From positions 1 through 25,579 of the IMG/VR virus record IMGVR_UViG_3300035438_000506: a stretch of 25,579 nt of DNA; one strand, given 5' to 3'. This document shows, piece after piece, positions 4,841 to 25,570 of this stretch. The translations under genes were made by a program, and so were the position numbers. The DNA comes from a virus. Numbering within the stretch: position 1 is the first letter of the stretch; every line of letters begins with the position of its first letter. Below the pieces are notes generated by a model. That model saw nothing but the letters and a program-made list of their open reading frames with translations. It searched no databases and was not told where the DNA came from.

Positions 4841-5770
4841 ATGGCATACACACACTGCATTGAGGTCGCTGAAGGTCGCCAAGCTTCGATTGATAATAAG
4901 TATCAACGAAGTTATACCCGTGTATTCTTAGTCAGAACTTCAGCTGCAACTTATGGTGCTGCATATGCCGCATCTCATCCCTCACTTCCAATCATATTCT
5001 CCGCCCATCCTGACGATGTTATAGCTAGGTGTGTATCGATAAAGCCTACTCAAGATCAGGGTGACCCACTACTCTGGCGCATAACCTACGAGTATTCTTA
5101 CAACGTAGATTCTGGCGGAGGTGGTGAAGATCCAGCAATTGATGAACAGCAGCAAGGTACGGACCCAGCTGATCGTGTAGAGAGTCCGCTATCACGTCCG
5201 AGAGATTATCAGATCAGTACCACGACATATCCGTGGGCTATTATGACTGATCGTCTTGGTAATGCAATTCTTAACACGGCAGAAGATCCATACCTTCCAG
5301 CTTTAGAGCGCATTTATGGTGGTGCTCTCATTACGGTCGGATTAAATTCAGCTTCTTCTCCTAGCTCTGCGTGGATTCAAGCAATCGGCTACGTTAACTC
5401 TGCAACATACACGCTAGGAACGTACGCCATTGGAGCGGGTCTGGCGAAACTAAACTCTATAAGTGCTAATAGGGTGTTTGAAAACAATGTATTTTATTGG
5501 CGGTGGAGTCTCGTGTTTGAATACCGTCCTTTAGGCTGGCTTGCCGTAATAGCGAGCAACGGATTAAACGAAATGCCTCTTATTGGCGGCGCTAAAAAGA
5601 AGCAAAGGATTATGCTTGAAGGTGGAGCTTACGCATCTACTCCTGTCTTGCTCAACGAATACGGACTGCGACTGAATGGACCTAGAGATGTTGGCGCACT
5701 TAATCCATCTAATCCACCCTATTATCAAACATTTGATATCTATCCGAGAGTAGCTTTTCCATCCCTTTAA
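4841..5770 (+). CDS. Putative distal tail/tail tip structural protein
   Basis: A 309-residue protein starting one base after the tape measure stop, with AGGAAAG upstream. Position and the beta-rich, Tyr/Trp/Asn-rich composition fit a distal tail or tail-tip protein. Readable segments are a strand block with YTRVFLVRTSAATYGAAY, a part on FSAHPDDVIARCVSIKPTQD followed by DPLLWRITYEYSYNVDSGGG, an acidic disordered loop (residues about 95-125), DYQISTTTYPWAIMTD and a long C-terminal region with VFYWRWSLVFEYRPLGW. I recall DPLLWxxTYEYS-like text from other phage tail modules annotated as unknown, but I cannot assign a named family. No membrane segment or signal peptide. Confidence 0.55.
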   Translation: MAYTHCIEVAEGRQASIDNKYQRSYTRVFLVRTSAATYGAAYAASHPSLPIIFSAHPDDVIARCVSIKPTQDQGDPLLWRITYEYSYNVDSGGGGEDPAIDEQQQGTDPADRVESPLSRPRDYQISTTTYPWAIMTDRLGNAILNTAEDPYLPALERIYGGALITVGLNSASSPSSAWIQAIGYVNSATYTLGTYAIGAGLAKLNSISANRVFENNVFYWRWSLVFEYRPLGWLAVIASNGLNEMPLIGGAKKKQRIMLEGGAYASTPVLLNEYGLRLNGPRDVGALNPSNPPYYQTFDIYPRVAFPSL

Positions 5771-5785
5771 GAAAGATAAACAAAT

Positions 5786-6334
5786 ATGCAAGGTTTTCTC
5801 CTAGATTCTGATACCATCGAAAGGTTAGCAAAGATGTTGCTCGCCTTTGAGGGTGGAAAGCTAGGAGGAGCTGCTCCTAAATCTATACCGTTAGATTCTA
5901 CGGCTCCAATACTGCACTTAGTAAGAATCACGTCAACAACAAAAGATGGTCAAGGAAATTATCCAGCAAAGATTCAATTTTACGACGCCTACTCAAACTC
6001 ATATACAGACGTAGAGGGAGATGTATCAGTAAAGGAAATAACAGGTCAGAATCTGCTTGCGCAACGATATATTGGTCGATTAGCTGGATATAATTCTTAC
6101 GGAGCAAATATATATCAGGTTTCTGCGACTGGTACAGCTGGCGCAACCTCCACGACAACAACTCCATCATACCTTTCTGTCGATTTTGTTGCCGCAATAT
6201 CCTGCAATGATGGAGAAATCCTGCCAATATACACAAATATCTGTATTCCCGGCGCTTATTACTGCTACGCCACCACAACGACCAGTACCGCAGCACCGAC
6301 GACGACTAGCACAACATCGACGGGAGGTGGCTAA
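5786..6334 (+). CDS. Tail-module surface protein with Thr/Ser-rich C-terminus, function unknown
   Basis: A 182-residue protein. The N-terminal part is a short helix (IERLAKMLLAFEGGKLGG); the middle is a beta domain (HLVRITSTTKDGQGNYPAKI, FYDAYSNSYTDVEGDVSVKEI and GRLAGYNSYGANIYQV). The end is low-complexity TTTT/TSTT sequence closing in TSTGGG. The last residues run into the same Thr/Ser/Gly style of linker used throughout the next gene, whose ATG overlaps this stop at 6334 (TAATG, with GGAGG just upstream). The two proteins are probably made together and may share a structure at the tail tip. I recall similar DGQGNYPAxIxxYDA text in metagenomic phages but know no assigned function. Confidence 0.5.
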   Translation: MQGFLLDSDTIERLAKMLLAFEGGKLGGAAPKSIPLDSTAPILHLVRITSTTKDGQGNYPAKIQFYDAYSNSYTDVEGDVSVKEITGQNLLAQRYIGRLAGYNSYGANIYQVSATGTAGATSTTTTPSYLSVDFVAAISCNDGEILPIYTNICIPGAYYCYATTTTSTAAPTTTSTTSTGGG

Positions 6335-9300
6335 TGTCGTGTGCAGGTAATTGCGTTTATCGCTGGACTGGTTCTGTCTGGTCTCTCTACACAAATTCAT
6401 GTGAGGGTGGTGGTGGCTGTATATGTGACGTAGCTCCATCCGAATCTGGATCAGAAGTAGACGAAGAATGGATGGTCGATTGCATTGAAGGTGGAACGAC
6501 AACAAGTACAAGCTCTACTGGCGGTGGAACGACAAGCTCAAGTTCAACAGGTGGCGGAACAACAAGTACAAGCTCTACTGGCGGTGGAACGACAAGTACA
6601 AGCTCTACTGGCGGTGGAACGACAAGCTCAAGTTCAACAGGTGGCGGAACAACAAGCTCAAGTTCAACAGGTGGCGGAACGACAAGCTCAAGTTCAACAG
6701 GTGGCGGAACAACAAGCTCAAGTTCAACAGGTGGCGGAACAACAAGCTCAAGTTCAACAGGTGGCGGAACAACAAGCTCGTCAACTACAAGTTCGTCAAC
6801 CACAAGTTCAACAACCACAACAACAACTACCAGCTCTACGCCTGATTGTGGTCCAGCCTACTGTGCATACGTAGGTAATGGTGTTGGTGGTTGGTCTTTC
6901 CTTATAGGAACATGTGCTACGGGTATTGGTTGTAATTGTCCTGCTCCTCCGACTGAAACAAGCTCAGGCTTTGAAATTGTGTTGAGGGGGTGCATCTATG
7001 GGTCTACTCCTACCACTACAACAATATCAGGACAGTGCCTTGGTTATTGCAGTTATGCTTGGAACGGGACAGGATGGACAGCAGGCGTAAATACGTGTGG
7101 TACTGGCTGTGGATGCAATAACCCACCTACCGATTCAGGTGGTTATATTGGTCAAAACGTAATAACTGGTTGTTCCACAAATCCTTCAACAAGCAGTACG
7201 ACGAGCAGTAGCACGACAAGCAGTACGACGACAAGTACGACACCATGCCCGGGGTCTTGTAATTACCAATACATCAGCGGAGTTTGGGTTTTCATATCCT
7301 CTGATTGTTCGGAAGAATGTCCTTGTGCTGAAGGTCCAACTGGACCGCCAGATCTTGGTACATTTATATCTGTTCCTTGCGGTAATATTACGCCAGTAAC
7401 AACAACCAGCACTACTCCCAGCGTTTGTGGCGCAAATATGTGTCGCTATGTTTGGGAAGGTTCTTTGGAATTAGGTAGATGGGTCAGCATTACGGCTTGT
7501 CCTCCTCCATGCTTCTGTTCTTATCCAACAGCAATGGCAACAGCATTAGATCAGATATACGAAGCACCATGTAAAGAGAGTCAGCCGCCATATTGCTCAG
7601 GTGCTTGCCTATACCAATGGTCAGGATCTGCGTGGTCATTAATTTCTTCGATGGATTGTGTAACTGGGTGTTACTGTCATCCTCCGCAATGGGCTGGCAC
7701 AACATCTGGTGAATATGCATCAACTGTCTGCTCGACCTCAGCCACCACTACGACACCTACCCCCACAACGACCACGGCTGCTCCATCCACAACCACTACC
7801 ACCACAGGGACTGGAACAACAGCGACGACCCCAGCACCGACATCAACTACTCCAAATGGCCATTATCTATGTTCACGTCTCGCATGTTGTTTTACAGTTG
7901 AAGAACATAATGTCACGTATGCGAAAAGTGACTGTGGTCAGGGTGCATGTAATTGTTATCCTGATTGGATGATTATCGATGCAACAATAGATACATCTTT
8001 TTATGCAAATTTATATTACTCACACAGAGGAATTGTAGGATATAACGGTAGAAATAAATCGTACGTTTATCAAGCTTGTCAACCCACTATTTCTGGTTAT
8101 TGGGGTACTACAAGCAGCACTTCAAGCAGTCCACCGTTTGACCCTCAGTGCGGATCAATTACGTGTCAATGGCAGTGGCATTCAGCAAATTCTACTTGGA
8201 CACGCTACGCTGGTGAAGGTGTTGCGATGAACCAGTATTGCCGCTGTGAGTATCCTCCCGTATCAGGCAGTGTTGATAACGAGATTTATTCAAATCCAGC
8301 CGTATCAGCTTCTTGCGGTTCGTGTATGCAGGGTGCTGATAAATTCCAGTGGTATTTTATTGGTGACGATCCGTCTGACCCCTTTGTGCGTGCTCCGCAA
8401 GAGCTTACAGTAACATTCCATGATCCAAACGGAGTTTGGCCAGCCATAGACGGCACTTCATTGACTCTTTACCGTGATAATGGAAACATGAAACAGTTTG
8501 CCAACTGGCGCACTGATCCCGTAACTGGATTACAGACGTGGTATAGTCCAGAAAATCTAACATACCCTGCAATAACCTACCAGACCGTAAAAAGAACACT
8601 CGGATCAAACGGTGGTTCTGCCGTAAAAGTACCATCCCTAAATGGTACTGGAAACTTCATACCAATTTTTGACCCTAGAATAACTGCGGATCAAAGAAAT
8701 CAGTTTGTGGGTAAGGTGACATGTCCTCCCTGTAACGCTGATATTGACATGAAGAAATTGCTTAAAGCTACAACAAATTTTAATGAACTTATTTGTAAAG
8801 ATATATATTTTGATTTTCGTGCCACTATCGCTTTAGGTAAATTTATCAAGTATACGGGTGCGGCTGGTATAGGAAACTGGCCATGTTCAAATTGTTTTGA
8901 ATATAGTTCAATCATACGTGATCAGTACGTAAAGTATTCTCAGGGATTAAATACGATAGAACCTACTAAATCGATGCTCATAGACACAGGCAATCCTTGG
9001 TATGATGCCTACAACAGAAATTGGACTTCGCCGATGGAGGATAAATATTTCGGGGAAATTTATCCTTACAATCTGCTCTACACCGGGTACTGGGCACTCA
9101 ATGCTTTTAGGCAGCACGCAAAAACTCTGTGTACTAACTGTGCTTCTATGGGTAGGGATAAAGCTAAATTTAATGTTCAATGTTCTTACGGCACATTTAC
9201 AGGGGAAAGGGTACCGTCTGTCTATGACTGGCAATGGAATGACGCTTGGAAAAAAGAGACACCGCTAAGAAAAATTTGTTTTCTGCGCATGTATAATGAG

Positions 9301-11065: not shown

Positions 11066-11730
11066 TCTACTACGCACTTATTTTTCTTTTATCAGGACAA
11101 CTCACCGTACCACCAGAAATTAAGGGTGACCCTGCATCATTCATTGTCATCGAGGCAAAAACTGAAGGAAAAACAGTTAAATTTGTTCCACTTGATGCAG
11201 GTATTCAAGTTTTTCCAAGTCGGTTACTGAGTGATCCTAAATCTACTGTAGTGGTCGCTCAAAAAGCGGGTAAATATCGTGTTTTGTGCTACTCTGCTCT
11301 GCCTTCAGGAGAGCCTACAGATCCCGTAATCACGACAGTTATCGTGGGGGACTACACACCACCACTCCCACCTAACCCACCTCCAGCACCAAACGATGAA
11401 CTAAAAATGGCTATAGAAGCAATCTACGGAGCAAGCCAAGAACAAGGCAAAGAGGCGTCAATTGTCAAATTATTTAATACGTATAGCGAGATTAAAAAGA
11501 TAATCAGAGACCCAAAGTTTACCGAAACAGAAGCATTATACGAAAAAATGCATGAGATTCGGGTCAACAGTGGACTTGATGATAAAGCTCTGATGCCTAT
11601 TCGGGAACGGTTGATGATCGAATGGGGGATGATTATGGGAGCTATACCAGTTCCGCTCACCCAAACCATGCGTGACAACGGAGAAAAGTTTGCTGAAAAA
11701 GTCACAATTATACTAGGGGGCATACGATGA
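11062..11730 (+). CDS. Predicted secreted protein with beta domain, Pro linker and helical C-terminus
   Basis: 222 residues from ATG 11062, chosen over an upstream in-frame ATG (11020) because it gives a signal-peptide-like N-terminus (MIYYALIFLLSGQLTVP) and an ATGA overlap. Residues about 17-95 form an Ig/PKD-like beta domain (IKGDPASFIVIEAKTEGKTV, FVPLDAGIQVFPSRLLSDP, STVVVAQKAGKYRVLCYSAL and TDPVITTVIVGDY). A proline run (PPLPPNPPPAP, about 96-108) links it to an alpha-helical domain. I recall this architecture (beta domain ending in V-G, Pro-rich spacer, helices) from planctomycete prophage-like genes, always without known function. It lies between the small membrane protein and the papain-like peptidase, overlapping the latter as ATGA, so a joint extracytoplasmic role is likely. 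Confidence 0.65.
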   Translation: MIYYALIFLLSGQLTVPPEIKGDPASFIVIEAKTEGKTVKFVPLDAGIQVFPSRLLSDPKSTVVVAQKAGKYRVLCYSALPSGEPTDPVITTVIVGDYTPPLPPNPPPAPNDELKMAIEAIYGASQEQGKEASIVKLFNTYSEIKKIIRDPKFTETEALYEKMHEIRVNSGLDDKALMPIRERLMIEWGMIMGAIPVPLTQTMRDNGEKFAEKVTIILGGIR

Positions 11731-12611
11731 ATATTGACGGATGGATCAACGATAAAGATGCAGTAGACGAGGTAGTAAGCACCTTAGAGTTTGCCGATGT
11801 CTCTCTCACACCCATTGGATCTGTACCAGTAGGAGCATTACCCGAAAATGTATACCTATGGGACATCGCTAAAAAAGTAACGGGATCACTGCTACCCCCA
11901 AAAAATCAGGGTAAGGTAGGCTCCTGCGTGTCATTTGGCACTGCAAGGGCGATTACTTATACTATGTTGGCAGAAATTGCATCGGGAGAAAAAGAAAGCT
12001 ACGTCGATATCTGTGAAGAAGTCATTTATGGCGGTAGCAGAGTGGAAATTGGTGGCGGTATGCGTGGCGATGGTAGTGTCGGCGCATGGGCTGCTAAATG
12101 GGTTTCATGCTACGGACTTGTGGCACGGGGAATATACGGCGATATTGATTTGTCTTCATATTCAGAACCTAGATGCAGAGAGTACGGGGCAAAAGGTGTA
12201 CCTCCAGAACTTGAACTAGAAGCAAAACTACATCCAGTCAGTAGCGCAACACGTGTACGAAACTGGGATGACGCAAAACGTGCATTAGCAAACGGTTACG
12301 GCATATCTTTGTGTTCCAATCAGGGCTTTACAATGGCTCGGGATAAGGATGGCGTAGCTTCAAAATCAGGAAGCTGGGCGCACTGCATGTGTCTATGTGG
12401 TTACGCAAAAATTGGATCATACGAATACGGTAGGATTGATAATAGTTGGGGTTCATCAGCACATACAGGTCCAGTTGGTCCGGGCAATCCGGGTCCAGAA
12501 GGTTTTTATGCTCGTGCTGACATCATCCACAACATGCTGAATTCTGGTGACTGTTGGATTTATGCAGACGTTACTGGATTCAAAAAACGAGAACTTAACT
12601 GGTTAATCTAA
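11727..12611 (+). CDS. Papain-like (C1-type) cysteine peptidase
   Basis: A 294-residue protein with the papain catalytic set in order: the oxyanion Gln and nucleophile in K-N-Q-G-K-V-G-S-C-V-S (Q61, C67), the catalytic His in S-W-A-H-C-M (H219) and the Asn in R-I-D-N-S-W-G (N239), followed by a Gly/Pro-rich loop and G-F-Y-A-R-A-D. That is complete for C1 peptidases of the bacterial/phage type. There is no signal peptide and no long inhibitory propeptide; the first 45 residues are only a short lead. The gene overlaps the secreted protein by ATGA. Possible roles are an endolysin-like or host-surface peptidase on the virion, or processing of phage proteins. No cell-wall binding domain is visible, so the lysis role is an inference. 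Confidence 0.85.
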   Translation: MNIDGWINDKDAVDEVVSTLEFADVSLTPIGSVPVGALPENVYLWDIAKKVTGSLLPPKNQGKVGSCVSFGTARAITYTMLAEIASGEKESYVDICEEVIYGGSRVEIGGGMRGDGSVGAWAAKWVSCYGLVARGIYGDIDLSSYSEPRCREYGAKGVPPELELEAKLHPVSSATRVRNWDDAKRALANGYGISLCSNQGFTMARDKDGVASKSGSWAHCMCLCGYAKIGSYEYGRIDNSWGSSAHTGPVGPGNPGPEGFYARADIIHNMLNSGDCWIYADVTGFKKRELNWLI

Positions 12612-14198: not shown

Positions 14199-14481
14199 AA
14201 TACCAAATCATAACCCGGGGAATCGACGACAGCAGAAACGTAGTGTCGATATGAGACCATCTTCGACGCAAAGGGGGTATGGAGCCTCGTGGCAGCGTTT
14301 AAGGTTGATGATCCTCCGTAGGGAGCCATTGTGCAGAATGTGTGGCGCAGCAGCCGTAGCGGTCGATCATATCATACCCCTAAAACAGGGCGGAAAAAAT
14401 ACTGAAGAGAATCTGCAAGCTCTATGCCATTCGTGCCACTCAAAGAAGACACTGTCAGACGGTAGCCATCGGAGGCAGTGA
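14188..14481 (+). CDS. HNH endonuclease (packaging-associated type)
   Basis: 97 residues. Typical small phage HNH: R-G-Y-G-A-S-W-Q-R-L-R (29-39), the first zinc knuckle C49-R-M-C52, the HNH core V-D-H-I-I-P-L (59-65) with G-G-x-N-T-E-E-N-L-Q-A-L (68-79), and the second knuckle C80-H-S-C83-H-S-K-K. In HK97-like phages such proteins act with terminase in cleaving concatemers and usually lie near the terminase or cos site. Here the gene closes the late module instead, before the control region. It starts inside the methyltransferase gene (11-base overlap) and its last 27 bases overlap, tail to tail, the minus-strand gene 14455-14718, with no terminator between them. Confidence 0.9.
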   Translation: MADKIPNHNPGNRRQQKRSVDMRPSSTQRGYGASWQRLRLMILRREPLCRMCGAAAVAVDHIIPLKQGGKNTEENLQALCHSCHSKKTLSDGSHRRQ

Positions 14482-14718
14482 CCAGACGATGTGCCTACCT
14501 CTTAGCTCAGACAGCACGCACAAGTGGTCTCTAGCCGCATATAACCGTTTGGTCGATATGGAGCAGGCATCTGATAAGACACGCACCTCAGCCAGTAAAC
14601 GGCAACCGTGCTGCAAAACTACTGATAGCCACTCTGAGTCGTCAATGAGGTGGGATGCAGTGACTTTCCTTACCTTTTTTCCCAAACCGATAATTGTAAT
14701 TTTTTGATGCTTTTTCAT
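14455..14718 (-). CDS. Stand-alone winged-helix protein resembling the C-terminus of the phage primase-helicase
   Basis: The only minus-strand gene seen: 87 residues from the CAT at 14716-14718, with AAGGAG four bases upstream on that strand. A longer in-frame start at 14850 exists, but its extra N-terminus is translated inverted repeat. The basic N-terminus (residues 1-19) is followed by T-A-S-H-L-I-D-D-S-E-W-L-S (20-32) and S-T-K-R-L-Y-A-A-R-D-H-L (55-66) with G-R-x-x-W-S-L (74-81). The primase-helicase at 18005 has T-G-H-L-L-A-D-M-E-W-L-S and K-R-L-Y-K-A-K-N-R-L ... G-R-K-W-W-R-L in the same order in its C-terminal wHTH (residues about 642-708). This shared order on an otherwise empty strand makes it a real gene. 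It lies next to TTGTGC repeats, so a repressor or replication regulator is likely (inference). Confidence 0.65.
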   Translation of the reverse strand: MKKHQKITIIGLGKKVRKVTASHLIDDSEWLSVVLQHGCRLLAEVRVLSDACSISTKRLYAARDHLCVLSELRGRHIVWSLPPMATV

Positions 14719-14798
14719 GGCACTCCTTAGCATACTTACGCTTGTGCATGGTATGACGCTGACAAACAAAAAATGGAAAGTTGATCGATGAAAAAACA

Positions 14799-14881
14799 GC
14801 AAAAACATGCAGTTGTGCAACTTGTGCGCTTGTGCACAAGAGAAAATCACTACACCCCAAACTCATAGCTTTTTTGTTGAC
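14799..14881 (+). repeat. Inverted cassette 1: three TTGTGC iterons plus TTGAC element
   Basis: The outer 37 bases (14799-14835) match the reverse complement of 15242-15278 at 36 of 37 positions. They contain TTGTGC at 14813, 14822 and 14830 (spacing 9 and 8 bases), the last being half of the perfect palindrome CTTGTGCACAAG (14829-14840). After a diverged stretch of exactly 31 bases comes AGCTTTTTTGTTGAC (14867-14881), also shared. The equal spacing in both copies shows an 83-bp functional unit rather than chance similarity. Confidence 0.9.
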
Positions 14882-14905
14882 GCACTCGACGTAAGTCATT
14901 TTAAT
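14877..14905 (+). promoter_or_regulatory. Rightward sigma-70-type promoter
   Basis: TTGACG (14877-14882), a 17-base spacer, then TTTAAT (14900-14905): one mismatch in each hexamer from TTGACA/TATAAT. The -35 box lies at the inner end of cassette 1, with the TTGTGC repeats 40-65 bases upstream, a place where activators or repressors act. Transcripts would start near 14912 and meet the terminator at 15121-15158. Confidence 0.6.
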
Positions 14906-15042
14906 TGCAACGGCATAAAGTGTAACTTTAATCGGTAGGTTAGTGGGGTGGTCGTGGTAATAACTTAGGACAAATGCCTACGGTCCGTATACCATAGGTC
15001 TAGCTGCACAGCTTTTCTTTTTATAATAAAAAAGAGAGAAAC

Positions 15043-15079
15043 ATTAATTTATATATATATATTAAAATATAAATATATA
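15043..15079. other. AT-only tract, possible DNA unwinding element
   Basis: Thirty-seven consecutive A/T bases, mainly TATATA runs, within a broader AT-rich stretch (15011-15095). It lies almost at the centre of symmetry of the two inverted iteron cassettes. Such a tract melts easily and would suit a replication origin; it could also be a simple AT-rich leader. Confidence 0.6.
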
Positions 15080-15120
15080 GAATGAAATAATACCACATTG
15101 AAAATTGAATGCAGTACAAG

Positions 15121-15158
15121 ACACTGCCAGACCCACAAATCTGGCAGTGTTTCTTTTT
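15121..15158 (+). terminator. Intrinsic transcription terminator
   Basis: Perfect 11-bp stem ACACTGCCAGA (15121-15131) / TCTGGCAGTGT (15140-15150) with an 8-base loop CCCACAAA, followed by TTCTTTTT (15151-15158). The T tract exists only on the + strand, so it stops rightward transcription from the promoter at 14877-14905. It lies about 220 bases before the first early gene and could act as an attenuator of early expression. Confidence 0.88.
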
Positions 15159-15195
15159 GTATGGCTATGTGCCTAAGTCCATACGTTTTACTCTT

Positions 15196-15278
15196 GTCAA
15201 CAAAAAAGCTAAACAAATCGGGTCTAGGAAAATTGTCGTTGGCACAAGCGCACAAGCTGCACAACTGCATGTTTTTGC
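15196..15278 (-). repeat. Inverted cassette 2: mirror copy of the TTGTGC/TTGAC unit
   Basis: On the minus strand, 15278 to 15242 repeats the iteron block of cassette 1 with one substitution. GCACAA hexamers on the + strand stand at 15242, 15250 and 15259, giving the same 8 and 9 base spacing in mirror order. After 31 diverged bases, the minus strand reads AGCTTTTTTGTTGAC (15210-15196), followed by A, a perfect TTGACA. No good -10 box is seen 16-18 bases further left, so this copy may be a binding site only or an activator-dependent promoter. Confidence 0.9.
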
Positions 15279-15341
15279 ACTTTTCTCTCATACACCACCA
15301 CCACCAACTAACATACCTATTGTATTTTTACTGGAGGACAA

Positions 15342-15377
15342 ATGTCAATAAAAGTAATAAGACTCGTTCGGAGGTGA
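15342..15377 (+). CDS. Possible 11-codon leader peptide MSIKVIRLVRR
   Basis: ATG 15342 has CTGGAGGAC directly upstream (GGAGG, 4-5 bases before the start), and the frame ends at TGA 15375-15377. The stop lies inside the GGAGGTGAT ribosome binding site of the next gene (ATG 15382). Ribosomes finishing the leader would therefore cover or free that site, a typical arrangement for translational coupling or attenuation. The peptide is basic (four Arg/Lys). Too short for coding statistics; the strong ribosome binding site is the main support. Confidence 0.4.
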   Translation: MSIKVIRLVRR

Positions 15378-15381
15378 TGAG

Positions 15382-15789
15382 ATGATGACGAAGAATGAAT
15401 ATGTCTCTGGGTTGCTGCCCGATGGAGTACCTGATAGCTTTGTGCGTTTCCCTGCTATATTGGCTCGTAATGATGATTATTCAGCCCTGCTGCCCTTCTT
15501 TGTTGGCGATGGAGGAGTATGGCGGATGAAGCATAAAAAGCTGCACAGGCTCACTCCCAATGCGCAAGGATCAATCCCACTAACCAACGGAGGAAGAACG
15601 GTGATGTGCGTCAGACTATCTTCAGTACTGGCTGCTGTAGAAGGGAAGAAAACGAAGCTGGAGAAAGTTTCTAAAGAAGAAAAAATAAATATCCGTGAAC
15701 TTTTTTTATCAGGGGAAAAAGTGCGTGATATATGCAGGATATACCCACAAATCTCACGTCAGCGTGTCCATGCGATTTGCAGACGATAA
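15382..15789 (+). CDS. Early DNA-binding protein (NUMOD-like N-part, helix-turn-helix C-terminus)
   Basis: 135 residues with a near-consensus ribosome binding site (GGAGGTGATGAG) before ATG 15382. The C-terminal 42 residues (KVSKEEKINIRELFLSGEKV, then RDICRIYPQISRQRVHAICR) form a homeodomain-like helix-turn-helix of the resolvase/transposase type. The middle part, G-D-G-G-V-W-R-M-K-H-K-K-L ... L-T-P-N-A-Q-G-S-I-P-L ... R-T-V-M-C-V-R-L-S-S-V-L-A, resembles the NUMOD4/AP2-like DNA-binding modules of homing endonucleases, but no nuclease motif is present. As the first early gene after the control region, a transcription regulator is the simplest reading. The next gene starts after a promoter-containing gap. 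Confidence 0.65.
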   Translation: MMTKNEYVSGLLPDGVPDSFVRFPAILARNDDYSALLPFFVGDGGVWRMKHKKLHRLTPNAQGSIPLTNGGRTVMCVRLSSVLAAVEGKKTKLEKVSKEEKINIRELFLSGEKVRDICRIYPQISRQRVHAICRR

Positions 15790-18004: not shown

Positions 18005-20200
18005 ATGACGGATGAAGAGAAGATTTTACAGTATCTCAAGCTTTTTATTGCGGAAGACGCCATTACGGAGCTACGTGCGCTGCCTGTGTCTAGAGAGAGT
18101 GGGCAAACGATGACGGGTCTCTACGACTATGCTCATCTAGATTTAATGGCTGAACATGCGGTCGAACTAGAGAAAACGGGACAGTATAAGGGCATTTATT
18201 TCATGCCCAACCCGATCAAACGGGAAAAATATACGTCATGTGTGCGCCCAAACAGCGTAGTGCCAGCCAGAACGAGCATAAGTGATGTCGATATCGATGA
18301 GCGCAGATGGCTCCTTATTGATGTCGATCCGAAAAGATCAGTAAAAGGTGAAGTGAGCGCATCAAAAGCGGAGAAAGACGCAGCGTGGAATGTTGTTTGC
18401 CGTGTTCGTGGCATCATGGCGTCTGCTGGATACAGTGAACCAATCGTAGCTTCGTCGGGCAATGGCTGGCATCTCAGTTACCCGATCAGTCTGGACAGCA
18501 CAGAAGACAATAAGATCGCAATTAAAGCGATACTGACGGGTCTACATGACAGATGTTCGGAGACTGGTGTCGCTGAGGTAGATACCACAATTCATAACTC
18601 AGGACGAATATGGAAATTGTATGGAACTATAGCCAGAAAAGGTGTCGAAAGTGACGATAGAAGACATAGACGCAGCGGTGTAATCTCCAGTCCAGCCACA
18701 CCATCTCCGCTTGATGCCAATAAAAATAGCAATGCTTGTGCCGCACTACTATCCATGTGGGCAAAACAGGAACAGGAGCAAGCTGACATCGAAGCTAGGC
18801 TCGCCATGCCTGAAAACATAAGAAGAGCAGATGCATACTTGGCTGCTTATCCGGGCGCTGTAGAGGGAGACGGAGGAAATCTACACACCTATTTAGCGGC
18901 TCAAGCAGTTGTGGAAGGGTTTGCCGTTGATGACGATAACGCATTCCTACTCCTCAAAAAGTGGAATGACAAATGTGATCCACCGTGGGATGACGCAGGA
19001 CTGATTCAAAAAATAAAGTGCGCCAAAGATAGGATAAAAGATAGAGGATATCTGCTCAACCGTGACAAACCCGCCAATCAGGCTGCTACATCGATACCTA
19101 GACATTTGCAGCAGAGACAGGCATATACTGGTATAGCATCAGTACCAGAAGTTATAGCGGCAACAGAAGATGATCCAGATGCGACAGCGACCGATCTAGT
19201 AGCTCTTCACGCACAGATTGAATGGTTGTGGGAGGGCTGGATACAGGTAGGGACTCTTACATGTCTTGCTGCTGATGCTGGCTGTGGCAAAACAAGGTTC
19301 TGCGCAGACTTAGCGAAGAGGTTAGCTTTAGGATTGCCACTACCAGACGGCTCCACTAACCCACACCCTGTCGGGACAAAGTGTATGTTCATTGCTGCTG
19401 ATAGTCAGTGGGCAGAGCTAGGTTCTCTTCCAACTGAATTTGGTTTTTCTGGCGACTGTTTGTTATTGAATGGTCGAAGAAGTAACCCTTATGGCGGGAC
19501 AAACCTTGACACTCCAGAAGACTTGGCTGATTTTGAGCGACGAATAATCAGAACAAGACCAGCCATTATATTTATTGACACCTGCGGCAATGCGACAGAC
19601 AAAGATACATGTAAGACGAGTGACGCTAAAGCTTTTTTCAAACCTCTGGCGGAGATAGCGGTAAGGCAAAGGTGCGCAATCGTTCTTGTCACTCATCTGA
19701 ATCGGGGTGGTCAGGTACTCGGAGCTAGGATTGTGGGTGCGGTCCGTCAGGTGATTTCATTATCTTACGGAGAAGAAGGGTCACCGAAAAATTTAAGAAT
19801 TTTAGAAATTTCCAAAACAAATTCAAAAAAACCATCGTCGCTGCATACATATATGGGTGACAGCGGAAACGACTATACGGTGGTAGAGACTCAGAGCCGT
19901 ACCGTAATGACCCCTGTTGCACTCCAGACTGGACACCTGCTGGCTGATATGGAGTGGTTGTCGGCATATATGCGTGGAGGCAGAGAGGTCGGCACTATGG
20001 AGAGACTGGTCGGGTTATGCAGGCAAGAGGCTGATAGTGCTGGAATCGGAGCGAAAAGGCTATATAAAGCGAAGAATAGACTGGGACTTATTGAGTTTTC
20101 AGTCGAGGGAAGAAAGTGGTGGAGGCTTGATGAAGGCGACACCCGAGTGGAAGATGATGAAGAGAATGAAGGTGATGAAGGGGATTATACTATAGACTAA
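18005..20200 (+). CDS. Primase-helicase: prim-pol-like domain, RepA/AAA_25 ATPase, winged helix
   Basis: 731 residues with AAAGGAGATTAGAG before the ATG. Residues about 55-230 look like an archaeo-eukaryotic-type primase: the metal-binding L-L-I-D-V-D-P-K (103-110), S-G-N-G-W-H-L-S-Y (151-159) and V-D-T-T-I-H-N-S-G-R-I-W-K-L-Y-G-T (192-208). A linker (about 260-350) resembles primase C-terminal helical domains. Residues about 395-630 are a RecA-fold helicase: Walker A A-A-D-A-G-C-G-K-T (422-430), Walker B I-I-F-I-D-T-C-G-N (521-529) and V-L-V-T-H-L-N-R-G-G (560-569). Residues 642-708 form a wHTH matching the minus-strand protein at 14455-14718. The last 20 residues are very acidic. It would prime and unwind DNA at the phage origin; no DNA polymerase gene is in the window. 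Confidence 0.88.
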   Translation: MTDEEKILQYLKLFIAEDAITELRALPVSRESGQTMTGLYDYAHLDLMAEHAVELEKTGQYKGIYFMPNPIKREKYTSCVRPNSVVPARTSISDVDIDERRWLLIDVDPKRSVKGEVSASKAEKDAAWNVVCRVRGIMASAGYSEPIVASSGNGWHLSYPISLDSTEDNKIAIKAILTGLHDRCSETGVAEVDTTIHNSGRIWKLYGTIARKGVESDDRRHRRSGVISSPATPSPLDANKNSNACAALLSMWAKQEQEQADIEARLAMPENIRRADAYLAAYPGAVEGDGGNLHTYLAAQAVVEGFAVDDDNAFLLLKKWNDKCDPPWDDAGLIQKIKCAKDRIKDRGYLLNRDKPANQAATSIPRHLQQRQAYTGIASVPEVIAATEDDPDATATDLVALHAQIEWLWEGWIQVGTLTCLAADAGCGKTRFCADLAKRLALGLPLPDGSTNPHPVGTKCMFIAADSQWAELGSLPTEFGFSGDCLLLNGRRSNPYGGTNLDTPEDLADFERRIIRTRPAIIFIDTCGNATDKDTCKTSDAKAFFKPLAEIAVRQRCAIVLVTHLNRGGQVLGARIVGAVRQVISLSYGEEGSPKNLRILEISKTNSKKPSSLHTYMGDSGNDYTVVETQSRTVMTPVALQTGHLLADMEWLSAYMRGGREVGTMERLVGLCRQEADSAGIGAKRLYKAKNRLGLIEFSVEGRKWWRLDEGDTRVEDDEENEGDEGDYTID

Positions 20201-20211
20201 CAGGAGCCAAG

Positions 20212-20694
20212 ATGAACAATATAGATGAAATTTATTCGGGGAACATAGGAGCTATTTATTCAGGGGCTGACTCAGTACAGCCTAAAAATATAGAGAGAGA
20301 AGATTGGAGACAAGAAGCAGCAATGCACGTTTGGAAAGTGCGCCACCTTTTTGATCCAAGTCGAGGCGGATGGGCTAACTTTTGCTATGAAATCATTAAA
20401 AAGTTAGCCGCAAGACACCATCAACACCACAGCTACCTATGCAGAAAAGGCATAACAACAAGTTATGACCCACAGATGGAACGTGGATTAGATCTCTCGG
20501 AACAACTTGATAGGAAAATTGATCTGATGGCTGCGATAGATAGCCTACCAGAAGACAAAAGAGCGGTAGCGATGCGTCTTCTCCAACAGTACAGGATCAC
20601 TGAGATTGCTGCTGGAGACAGACGGCGGAACTGGGATGAAAAAGAAGAGGTCTTTGGTCTGATCAGGGACTACCTTTTTGTTGACGAAGCATGA
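20212..20694 (+). CDS. Sigma-70 family-like protein
   Basis: 160 residues. Residues about 29-78 read like sigma region 2: D-W-R-Q-E-A-A-M-H-V-W-K-V-R-H-L-F-D-P-S-R-G-G-W-A-N-F-C-Y, followed by a helix I-I-K-K-L-A-A-R-H-H, the usual core-binding and -10 recognition layout (D-x-x-Q-E ... F-D-P-x-R-G-x-F-x-x-Y). Residues about 104-155 fit a short region-4-like HTH beginning A-I-D-S-L-P-E-D-K-R-A-V-A-M-R-L. Regions 1 and 3 are absent, as in ECF-type or phage-encoded factors. It may direct host RNA polymerase to late genes or, like ArpU-type proteins, regulate late transcription. It follows the primase-helicase by 11 bases with CAGGAG upstream. Confidence 0.7.
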   Translation: MNNIDEIYSGNIGAIYSGADSVQPKNIEREDWRQEAAMHVWKVRHLFDPSRGGWANFCYEIIKKLAARHHQHHSYLCRKGITTSYDPQMERGLDLSEQLDRKIDLMAAIDSLPEDKRAVAMRLLQQYRITEIAAGDRRRNWDEKEEVFGLIRDYLFVDEA

Positions 20695-22717: not shown

Positions 22718-25570
22718 ATGCCTCAAGTACAAGATATATTAGTTGGAAATTCAACAACCCAATATATCTATGTATATACGTGGGTCAGCAGTACTGGATT
22801 TGGTACTCAACTGAGTAGTGTACCGACCACACCTACGGGAGAAATCGGTGATATTTCATTTGGTGCTGGTTGTGTTTTTTACACGCAGGCATCCACAACC
22901 ATCGGTCCACAAGCGCACACGTACACGCCTAATGTTGGTTTTGGGACAAAATTCTCGAATGTTTCACCAGCCTTCTCTAACACGGGAACAGCCCTAAACG
23001 GTTTAGCTTCGACTGATAAGGACGTTTTTGCTTCGGGTGCCGCATCTCCGTTTATAGCAGCTTGGCCATTTAATTCAACAACGGGATACGGCACTAAATA
23101 TGCTAATCCGTCTACAGCTCTTCCTTCAGTTGCTTTCGACATCGAGGTCACCAAAGAAAATGGAGTTGATGACTATTTTGTTGCTGTAGCCAATGCATCT
23201 TCATCCTCAACTGCTGGTGTCAATCTTTATTATTTCAAAACGGGAATTGGTTTTGGTACTAAAATCGCCAATCCAGCCACACTCCCACCAACACTAGGCA
23301 GTGGTATTACGTATAACCGCAACGGCAGCGGCGTAATGAGTTATTCGTGTACCACTTCTCCGTACATGGCTGGATACCAATTAAATAGCACGGGTTTTCA
23401 AACCAAGCTTGCCAATCCAACTAACCCACCGAATAGCACAGCCCGTGACGTCGATGAAAGCCCCGAAAATGCAAGCGGAACAAGAATGGTCGCATGGGCT
23501 GTATCTTCGTCTCCGAGAGTGAGTATGCACACATGCGATGGTTCCTCTTACGGAGCCAGAGTCGCCAATCCAGCAACTTTGCCACCAGCCGCAGCGTATG
23601 CTATTGACTTTACGGATAAAGACATTGGTATCGCCCACAACAATACGCCATTTTTAAGTGTGTATCCGTGGACATCCACTGGTTATGGCATTAAATATTC
23701 AAATCCATCTTCATTACCTTCAGGTTCAGGTAGAGCTGTTAGGTTTTTCTATTTTCCGTTTGCATATAAAATAGAAGATACTGGACGTAGTTTAGCTCTT
23801 AGTTTTAATGCTGCTACTCTTACAAAAACTTCGTCTACTGCGCTATCTCTCACCGCAACCGTAGCAACTTATGCGCTATCTGGGCAGGCTACTGGCTTAA
23901 TTGTTGGGCGTAAATTAGCGGCAACAGAAACAACTTATGCGCTATCTGGGCAGGCTACTGGCTTAATTGTTAATCGTAAGTTATCAGCAACAGAAACAAC
24001 TTATGCGCTATCTGGGCAGGCTACTGGCTTAATTGTTGGGCGTAAATTAGCGGCTGATGTTAGGACTTACTCATTATCGGGGCAAACTGCTGGATTAAGC
24101 ACAAGTCGTAAGTTAATAAGCGATGTCGCTACTTACTCCTTATCTGGGCACACCTTAGCGCTGACAAAACAAGGTGTTACATCACATATTTTAGGAGCGA
24201 TTGAGGGCACATTAGATTCAGTCGGGTTACCAGCAGGGTTAATCGTCGGTCGTAATCTTACTGCAACGGGAACAAGTTGCTCGCTGGTTGGGCAAGATAC
24301 AGGATTAATCGTAGCAAGAAAGCTTAGTGGAACAGTATCAGAGTACGCACTATCAGGTTCAGCCTCCAGTTTAAGCTCAGGACTCAAACTTACCGCTACT
24401 ATAAGTGGTTATACTTTATCTGGGCAAACTACTGGATTAATTGTTGGGCGTAAGTTATCGTCTGATGTCTCTACTTATGCGTTATCTGGTTCATCATCTA
24501 ATTTAATCGTTGGCAAAACATTAAGCGGAACCGTAGCAACTTATTCACTATCAGGTTCAGCATCTAGTTTAAGCTCAGGACTCAAACTTACCGCTACTAT
24601 AAGTGGTTATACTTTAGCAGGTTCAGCATCCAGTTTAATTGTCGGGCGTAAGTTATCGGCTGATGTCTCTACTTATGCGTTATCTGGTGCATCATCTAAT
24701 TTAATCGTCGGTAAAACATTAAGCGGAACAGTATCAGAGTACGCATTATCAGGTTCAGCCTCCAGTTTAAGCTCAGTTAGATTGTTAGTAGCATCGTCTG
24801 GAACATTAACATTAACGCTTTCGTCAGCATCCCTAGCAAAAGCTTCACCTACAGCTTATTCGATCTCTGCTGAATCCAATGCAATCAATTTATCTGGCAA
24901 TGCAAATCAATTAAAAACGGCAAGGGTTATGCCTTCAAGTGTGGCGACATACACACTCAACCTCCTAACCAACCAATTAAAGCTTGCGAAGAAGATTGTC
25001 GCATCCGTAAACGATCTGAGCGGTCAGTTTATTGATGCTTCGATTCGTAAAACGCATATAATGGCAGTCACTGTACAGTCGATAACTTATACTGGGATTG
25101 ATTCTGGGGCATATATTGGCAGGCGTACTGGAGCAGATCAGAGCAGTTTTAATCTTACTGGCGTTTCAAACCAACTTAAATCAGCAAGGAAGTCGATCTG
25201 TTCTGTTGGATCTTATCTTCTCAGCGGGATAAGTATTGAGTACGTTACCGTTCTGTCTCCATCGACTATAAGCGTAAATGATATAAGTGCTTATGCTGTT
25301 TCATCAAGCCATGCAAAGATAAACAAACCGAGCACGATAGTCTACTCAAACGTAACGAATGTTGTAGATTCTGACGCTGTTACTGTTGTTGCTGGAGATG
25401 CAAAAACGGGAAGTATTGTCCAGAATGCAAATTTAGTTAACTCTGTCGATACTGAGCAACAGAGTAATATCATCCTCTGTGTTCACGCTGCTGCCGCTAA
25501 TATAAGCACGGAAGTTAGCGATACGATAACGGTTAACAGTACAAATGTGGAGGTAAACAATGTCGTATGA
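22718..25570 (+). CDS. Large repeat adhesin: seven-bladed beta-propeller plus 22-residue repeats
   Basis: 950 residues. Residues 1-345 carry seven copies of a blade motif G-[FY]-G-[TI]-K-x-[AS]-N-P-x-x-x-P (first residues near 27, 75, 125, 185, 229, 278 and 324; some degenerate), which predicts a seven-bladed propeller. Residues about 365-720 are 22-residue repeats with consensus L-x-A-T-x-x-T-Y-x-L-S-G-x-A-x-x-L-I-V-G-R-K; degenerate copies continue to about 870. The C-terminus is Ser/Asn/Val-rich. Propeller domains with repeat stalks fit a tail fibre or receptor-binding protein. I recall both repeat types in phage proteins without known receptor. No signal peptide. Its stop overlaps the next start by 11 bases, with GGAGG preceding. 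Confidence 0.75.
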   Translation: MPQVQDILVGNSTTQYIYVYTWVSSTGFGTQLSSVPTTPTGEIGDISFGAGCVFYTQASTTIGPQAHTYTPNVGFGTKFSNVSPAFSNTGTALNGLASTDKDVFASGAASPFIAAWPFNSTTGYGTKYANPSTALPSVAFDIEVTKENGVDDYFVAVANASSSSTAGVNLYYFKTGIGFGTKIANPATLPPTLGSGITYNRNGSGVMSYSCTTSPYMAGYQLNSTGFQTKLANPTNPPNSTARDVDESPENASGTRMVAWAVSSSPRVSMHTCDGSSYGARVANPATLPPAAAYAIDFTDKDIGIAHNNTPFLSVYPWTSTGYGIKYSNPSSLPSGSGRAVRFFYFPFAYKIEDTGRSLALSFNAATLTKTSSTALSLTATVATYALSGQATGLIVGRKLAATETTYALSGQATGLIVNRKLSATETTYALSGQATGLIVGRKLAADVRTYSLSGQTAGLSTSRKLISDVATYSLSGHTLALTKQGVTSHILGAIEGTLDSVGLPAGLIVGRNLTATGTSCSLVGQDTGLIVARKLSGTVSEYALSGSASSLSSGLKLTATISGYTLSGQTTGLIVGRKLSSDVSTYALSGSSSNLIVGKTLSGTVATYSLSGSASSLSSGLKLTATISGYTLAGSASSLIVGRKLSADVSTYALSGASSNLIVGKTLSGTVSEYALSGSASSLSSVRLLVASSGTLTLTLSSASLAKASPTAYSISAESNAINLSGNANQLKTARVMPSSVATYTLNLLTNQLKLAKKIVASVNDLSGQFIDASIRKTHIMAVTVQSITYTGIDSGAYIGRRTGADQSSFNLTGVSNQLKSARKSICSVGSYLLSGISIEYVTVLSPSTISVNDISAYAVSSSHAKINKPSTIVYSNVTNVVDSDAVTVVAGDAKTGSIVQNANLVNSVDTEQQSNIILCVHAAAANISTEVSDTITVNSTNVEVNNVV
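23859..24790 (+). repeat. 66-bp tandem repeats with a 198-bp higher-order period
   Basis: Inside the adhesin gene, three adjacent units (from 23867, 23933 and 23999) share 39 identical bases each at 66-base spacing. Further on, blocks recur exactly 198 bases apart (three units): GGAACAGT/GGAACCGT at 24329, 24527 and 24725; TTTAAGCTCAGGACTC at 24370 and 24568; CTGATGTCTCTACTTATGCG at 24462 and 24660. The pattern shows recent duplication of three-unit blocks in frame and makes recombination between copies likely. Confidence 0.92.

Follow-up and report, generated by a model that had tools for sequence, protein, structure and literature searches.

The stretch of DNA analysed here (positions 1 to 25,579 of the IMG/VR virus record IMGVR_UViG_3300035438_000506, in the following referred to as the window) contains an element in which two mirror-image arms, each with three TTGTGC iterons, enclose a tract composed only of A and T. 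This element is probably a replication origin of the phage. The observed basis of this assignment comprises the anatomy of the DNA, the extreme instability of its centre, the homology of a protein domain and an excess of mirrored repeats next to related helicases. Three results make an origin the best reading of the sequence: the product of the neighbouring gene is predicted to be a winged-helix protein with homology to the C-terminal domain of the phage's own helicase, mirrored repeats are enriched 3' of related helicases, and several of these arrays share a spacing of 8-9 bp. The features concerned are the following:

14455-14718, minus strand: stand-alone winged-helix gene of 87 amino acids (aa), candidate arm-binding protein (BLASTP, hidden Markov model (HMM), AlphaFold2, Shine-Dalgarno sequence)
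14799-14835, plus strand: left outer block with three TTGTGC iterons (sequence, inverted-repeat match, shuffles)
14866-14881, plus strand: left inner block, TAGCTTTTTTGTTGAC (arm alignment)
15012-15091, not stranded: proposed DNA unwinding element, which holds the A/T-only tract 15043-15079 (nearest-neighbour stability)
15119-15160, plus strand: terminator-like hairpin with a T-rich tail (13-pair stem, CTTTTTG tail)
15196-15211, minus strand: right inner block, mirror of 14866-14881 (arm alignment)
15242-15278, minus strand: right outer block with three mirrored iterons (arm alignment)
18005-20200, plus strand: proposed initiator helicase with a primase-polymerase-like N-terminus, an AAA_25 helicase and a C-terminal winged-helix domain (Pfam, alignment to a related helicase, C-terminal family alignment)

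Across 92 nt the two arms (14790-14881 and 15196-15287) show 78% complementarity, and no other inverted repeat of at least 22 nt is reported in the contig. The outer block is identical to the reverse complement of its counterpart at 36 of 37 bases. When 14700-15400 was shuffled 200 times with dinucleotides preserved, the best inverted match over 37 bases had at most 25 identical positions (mean 22), with the AT tract in or out. TTGTGC starts at 14813, 14822 and 14830 in the left arm (spacing 9 and 8) and, mirrored, at 15242, 15250 and 15259 in the right arm; the pattern TTGTGC-N6-12-TTGTGC is found 2 times in the window against 0.04 expected, and an extra TTGTGC copy at 14742 lies beyond the left triple. 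Both arms carry the inner block AGCTTTTTTGTTGAC without a mismatch, and the match continues one base outward (TAGC...), the inner blocks being identical at 16/16 bases. The filler between outer and inner blocks matches at 15 of 31 bases; the spacing of the blocks is equal in the left and right arm. The outer match, the iteron spacing and the 31 diverged bases followed by a shared arm end had already been noticed in a preliminary description of this DNA, and all were recovered, with the arms in the positions given there. Two conserved blocks at a constant distance with diverged filler between them would look like two binding sites held at a fixed spacing rather than like a recent duplication. 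A coding origin of the arms was considered, as they share a reading frame (MQLC.LCACA...SFFVD), but the sole difference between the outer blocks is non-synonymous and the middle is diverged, and a constraint at the DNA level therefore fits better.

The symmetry centre of the arms falls at 15038.5, just outside the A/T-only tract and thus bordering it, as had been proposed for a centre at about 15038. By nearest-neighbour stability, no other 80 bp of the contig are as unstable as 15012-15091 (-6.2 standard deviations). The hairpin at 15119-15160 probably ends rightward transcription ahead of the early operon, and neither Rfam families nor tRNAs were matched. A promoter scan found no convincing outward promoters at the element.

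The gene that flanks the left arm starts 80 bp outside the outer block and is preceded by a TAAGGAG Shine-Dalgarno sequence. Its 87-aa product resembles residues 644-703 of the phage's own helicase (35% over 60 aa, E 2e-7 in a single BLASTP comparison), and an HMM for the C-terminal domain of the helicase, from which the 87-aa protein had been left out, recovers that protein at E 2.8e-5 among the 24,439 reading frames of all loci. AlphaFold2 predicts a helix-helix-helix-strand-strand arrangement with a two-strand wing (predicted local distance difference test, pLDDT, >90 for residues 21-80 and about 97 for residues 31-80). Structural matches by Foldseek/VIA are to generic winged helices of no single family, none with E <0.001 and with Z <=8.4, and for this reason they support the fold only. 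The protein is thus predicted to be a detached copy of the helicase's C-terminal winged-helix domain. The same family is represented by a further stand-alone winged-helix gene (97 aa; L173:15052-15345) in another AAA_25 phage; about 1.2 kb from that gene there is a repeat-containing divergent intergenic region that is AT-rich.

AAA_25 is the only significant Pfam family in the helicase itself (E 9.5e-20), and its C-terminal domain is a winged helix by homology in the family alignment. The closest relative is the helicase of locus L133, with 33% identity over query residues 5-714. A primase function of the N-terminus is suggested by motifs and homologues only: D106 and D108 are conserved and identity to L133 reaches 38%, LigD_Prim-Pol is weak (E 0.031), and the AlphaFold2 model is too poor to use (pLDDT 46). 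Only 11 bases separate the 3' side of the helicase from the next gene (start 20212), which encodes a sigma-70 region 2-like protein (20212-20694) that may direct phage promoters missed by a sigma-70 scan.

Relatives of the element itself were sought in phage and plasmid DNA, and these searches were empty. The 15-mer AGCTTTTTTGTTGAC was found in 98 IMG/VR stretches, in none of those fetched with a mirrored second copy. TTGTGC triples elsewhere in IMG/VR had no mirrored partner triple, and several of them stand in one conserved context resembling coding sequence; related phage contigs with inverted TTGTGC triplets around an AT tract, for which the preliminary description had suggested looking, were thus not found. 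As no relative with the same arms was available, the question shifted to mirrored repeats near the AAA_25-winged-helix helicases of other phages. A profile-based scan yielded 80 such loci, which were reduced to 40 non-redundant ones with enough downstream sequence (the window not included), and the repeat score of the 400 bp directly 3' and of the 400 bp upstream of each helicase was ranked within its own locus, with two repeat scores being tried. For mirror-image repeats, the stretch 3' of the helicase belonged to the highest 5% within its locus in 8 of the 40 loci, against 2 expected (binomial p 7e-4, for one of the two scores), and upstream in 0 of 40.

Individual arrays illustrate this pattern, although they (L135, L208, L201, L192, L103 and L133) were selected from the scan and the p value of 7e-4 remains the unselected statement. 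In L135 an array of TTGGCAATG with 9-bp spacing faces a mirrored array, and the right triple of L135 (9244, 9252, 9261) is spaced 8,9 like the right triple of the window; a spacing of 8-9 bp recurs in several arrays beside related helicases. L208 likewise has an array of GGCGAGTAC facing a mirrored one, and in L201 arms of 99 nt enclose AT-rich DNA at a separation of 397 nt. Repeats of CTTGCACA occur in L192 (Prim-Pol and AAA_25 by Pfam), mirrored TTTTGGGCGCAT repeats in L133, and further mirrored repeats beside the AAA_25-winged-helix helicase of L103. L103 and L201 are tailed phages, as terminase and portal genes are present. In L133, a truncated second AAA_25 helicase copy with no recognisable winged-helix domain (5061-6377) directly follows the helicase and mirrored iterons, which is possibly another route to uncoupling the winged-helix domain from the helicase.

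Several observations weigh against an origin at this element. The same arms were not found in any related contig in phage, plasmid, genome and IMG/VR searches, and the GC skew, proposed beforehand as a check, has no clear switch at the element. The distance of the element from the helicase is about 2.7 kb, on the 5' side; in relatives, and in the phage-inducible chromosomal islands (PICIs) discussed below, the origin adjoins the helicase directly on the 3' side. In the scan, the majority of the 40 helicase loci lack a mirrored array in the downstream 400 bp, direct repeats alone are not significantly enriched there (4/40), and a test confined to intergenic gaps is only suggestive (6 of 11 top-ranked against 2.4 expected, with crude gene calls). 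Finally, because the contig is an incomplete fragment, a second origin may lie elsewhere.

The main rival is a divergent regulatory region without origin function, in which the 87-aa winged-helix protein, as a repressor or activator, would bind both arms and control its own leftward gene together with the rightward early operon. The element does sit between that gene (ATG 14718) and the rightward early genes (15343, 15382), with the arms upstream of both, the spacing of the blocks is fixed in both arms, and winged-helix folds are common in transcription regulators. Such a region would, however, leave the extreme AT tract between the arms unexplained, as well as the mirrored arrays beside related helicases; moreover, the homology of the 87-aa protein is to the helicase's own domain and not to a repressor family, and no convincing outward promoters appeared in the scan. 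We therefore regard regulation without an origin as unlikely, though a regulatory switch may coexist with one. Still less credit is due to two facing promoters with TTGAC -35 boxes that would make inward RNAs. Such a scheme would fit the left arm, where TTGACG precedes TTTAAT by 17 bp, and the strong rightward terminator at 15119-15152. In the right arm, however, no -10 element could be recognised 16-18 bp from the TTGACA, either by reading the sequence or in the promoter scan, no Rfam family is matched and no leftward terminator of similar strength was found. The preliminary description had offered an origin or a bidirectional switch with facing promoters; its origin half draws support from the winged-helix neighbour, the AT-rich tract and the repeats beside related helicases, while its facing-promoter half is weak.

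It is similarly improbable that the arms are paired arm-type sites of a packaging (cos/pac) or integrase attachment (attP) site. An HNH endonuclease gene adjoins the element, and HNH endonuclease genes are often near cos, yet none of the genes beside the element was recognised as a terminase or integrase gene, its neighbours being the winged-helix gene and early genes. Least probable, by a slight degree, are the terminal inverted repeats of a small non-autonomous transposon (miniature inverted-repeat transposable element). The inverted repeats are long and imperfect with the outer part best conserved, as would be expected of one, but no credible target-site duplication was present at any boundary (the two 4-mers found are palindromes within the matching arms), the window holds no second copy, and phages, plasmids and genomes gave no match.

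If the element is an origin, the C-terminal winged-helix domain of the helicase would bind the TTGTGC iterons in both arms, and helicase bound on both sides would melt the A/T-only tract and load for two divergent forks. A second binding or bending site could be provided by the inner TTTTTTGTTGAC blocks, which are placed at a constant distance in each arm. The 87-aa protein is likely to modulate the iteron sites or to compete for them and would thereby control initiation, the two divergent transcription units, or both; alternatively to competing with the helicase, it might recruit it or serve solely as a transcription regulator.

This plan has a close parallel in PICI origins, where two iteron sets flank an AT-rich region (PMC6092414), and in Staphylococcus aureus pathogenicity islands (SaPIs), whose Rep, like Cch2, recognises iterons by its C-terminal domain (PMC7581432). 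The claim that no described phage element has exactly this plan consequently fails in substance, as the plan is that of PICI origins. As in the origins of SaPIbov1 and EcCICFT073, there are two iteron sets (here three TTGTGC per arm, oppositely oriented), an AT-rich region between them (here the predicted melting region 15012-15091) and an initiator helicase with a C-terminal DNA-binding domain (here a predicted winged helix). Unlike PICI origins, which lie directly 3' of rep, this element is 5' of the helicase and beside a stand-alone winged-helix gene; PICI and SaPI initiators are of the DUF927 or D5/Primase_Cterm type instead of AAA_25, and PICIs are satellites, whereas this contig has neck, tail terminator and tail assembly chaperone families. 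We do not claim PICI membership for the element, since position and helicase class differ and it resides in a phage with tail genes. The putative Cch2 origin of staphylococcal cassette chromosome mec (SCCmec) also has iterons beside the helicase gene that are bound by the isolated C-terminal domain (PMC7581432), but what counts for binding there is three direct iterons rather than a pair of mirrored triples, and the helicase is of another class. In pRN1, the primase-helicase-winged-helix protein ORF904 has a symmetric origin element near its gene (PMC4234260). Unlike the present element, this is a 100-bp stem-loop 3' of the gene, the helicase belongs to superfamily 3 (SF3), and no mirrored iteron arrays are reported. 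The alpha protein of phage P4 (ori1/crr) is likewise a primase-helicase with a C-terminal origin-binding domain and iterons, the difference being that kilobases separate its two sites.

The contig represents part of a tailed phage. Genes for the neck, the tail terminator and the tail chaperone occupy its left side, and replication and early genes follow on the right; nearly all genes read rightward, 14455-14718 being the exception. The tail module includes a papain-family peptidase gene (11727-12611) with 55-60% identity to genes in eight IMG/VR contigs, several of which share the tail module yet differ in the replication module. The tail-module relatives L115-L117 and L122 have another replication module, and in L115 and L117 iteron-like repeats occur instead within a large open reading frame. 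Ten 30-base repeats (6429-6848) form a threonine/serine-glycine stretch within a 1067-aa tail-region protein, and a 950-aa protein with many 66-base repeats (22718-25570) is possibly tail fibre-like.

Replication origins of uncultured phages are rarely known. The arrays beside related helicases suggest, though do not prove, that the twin-iteron design is wider than PICIs. More tentatively, and with rather less than even confidence, we propose that twin mirrored-iteron origins, which the literature presents as a peculiarity of PICIs, are a general design of AAA_25-winged-helix-helicase replicons in tailed phages, the origin here being placed away from the helicase and a detached copy of the origin-binding domain acting as a dedicated regulator of initiation. 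The detached winged-helix gene would make it possible to test whether a phage regulates initiation through a free-standing version of its origin-binding domain.
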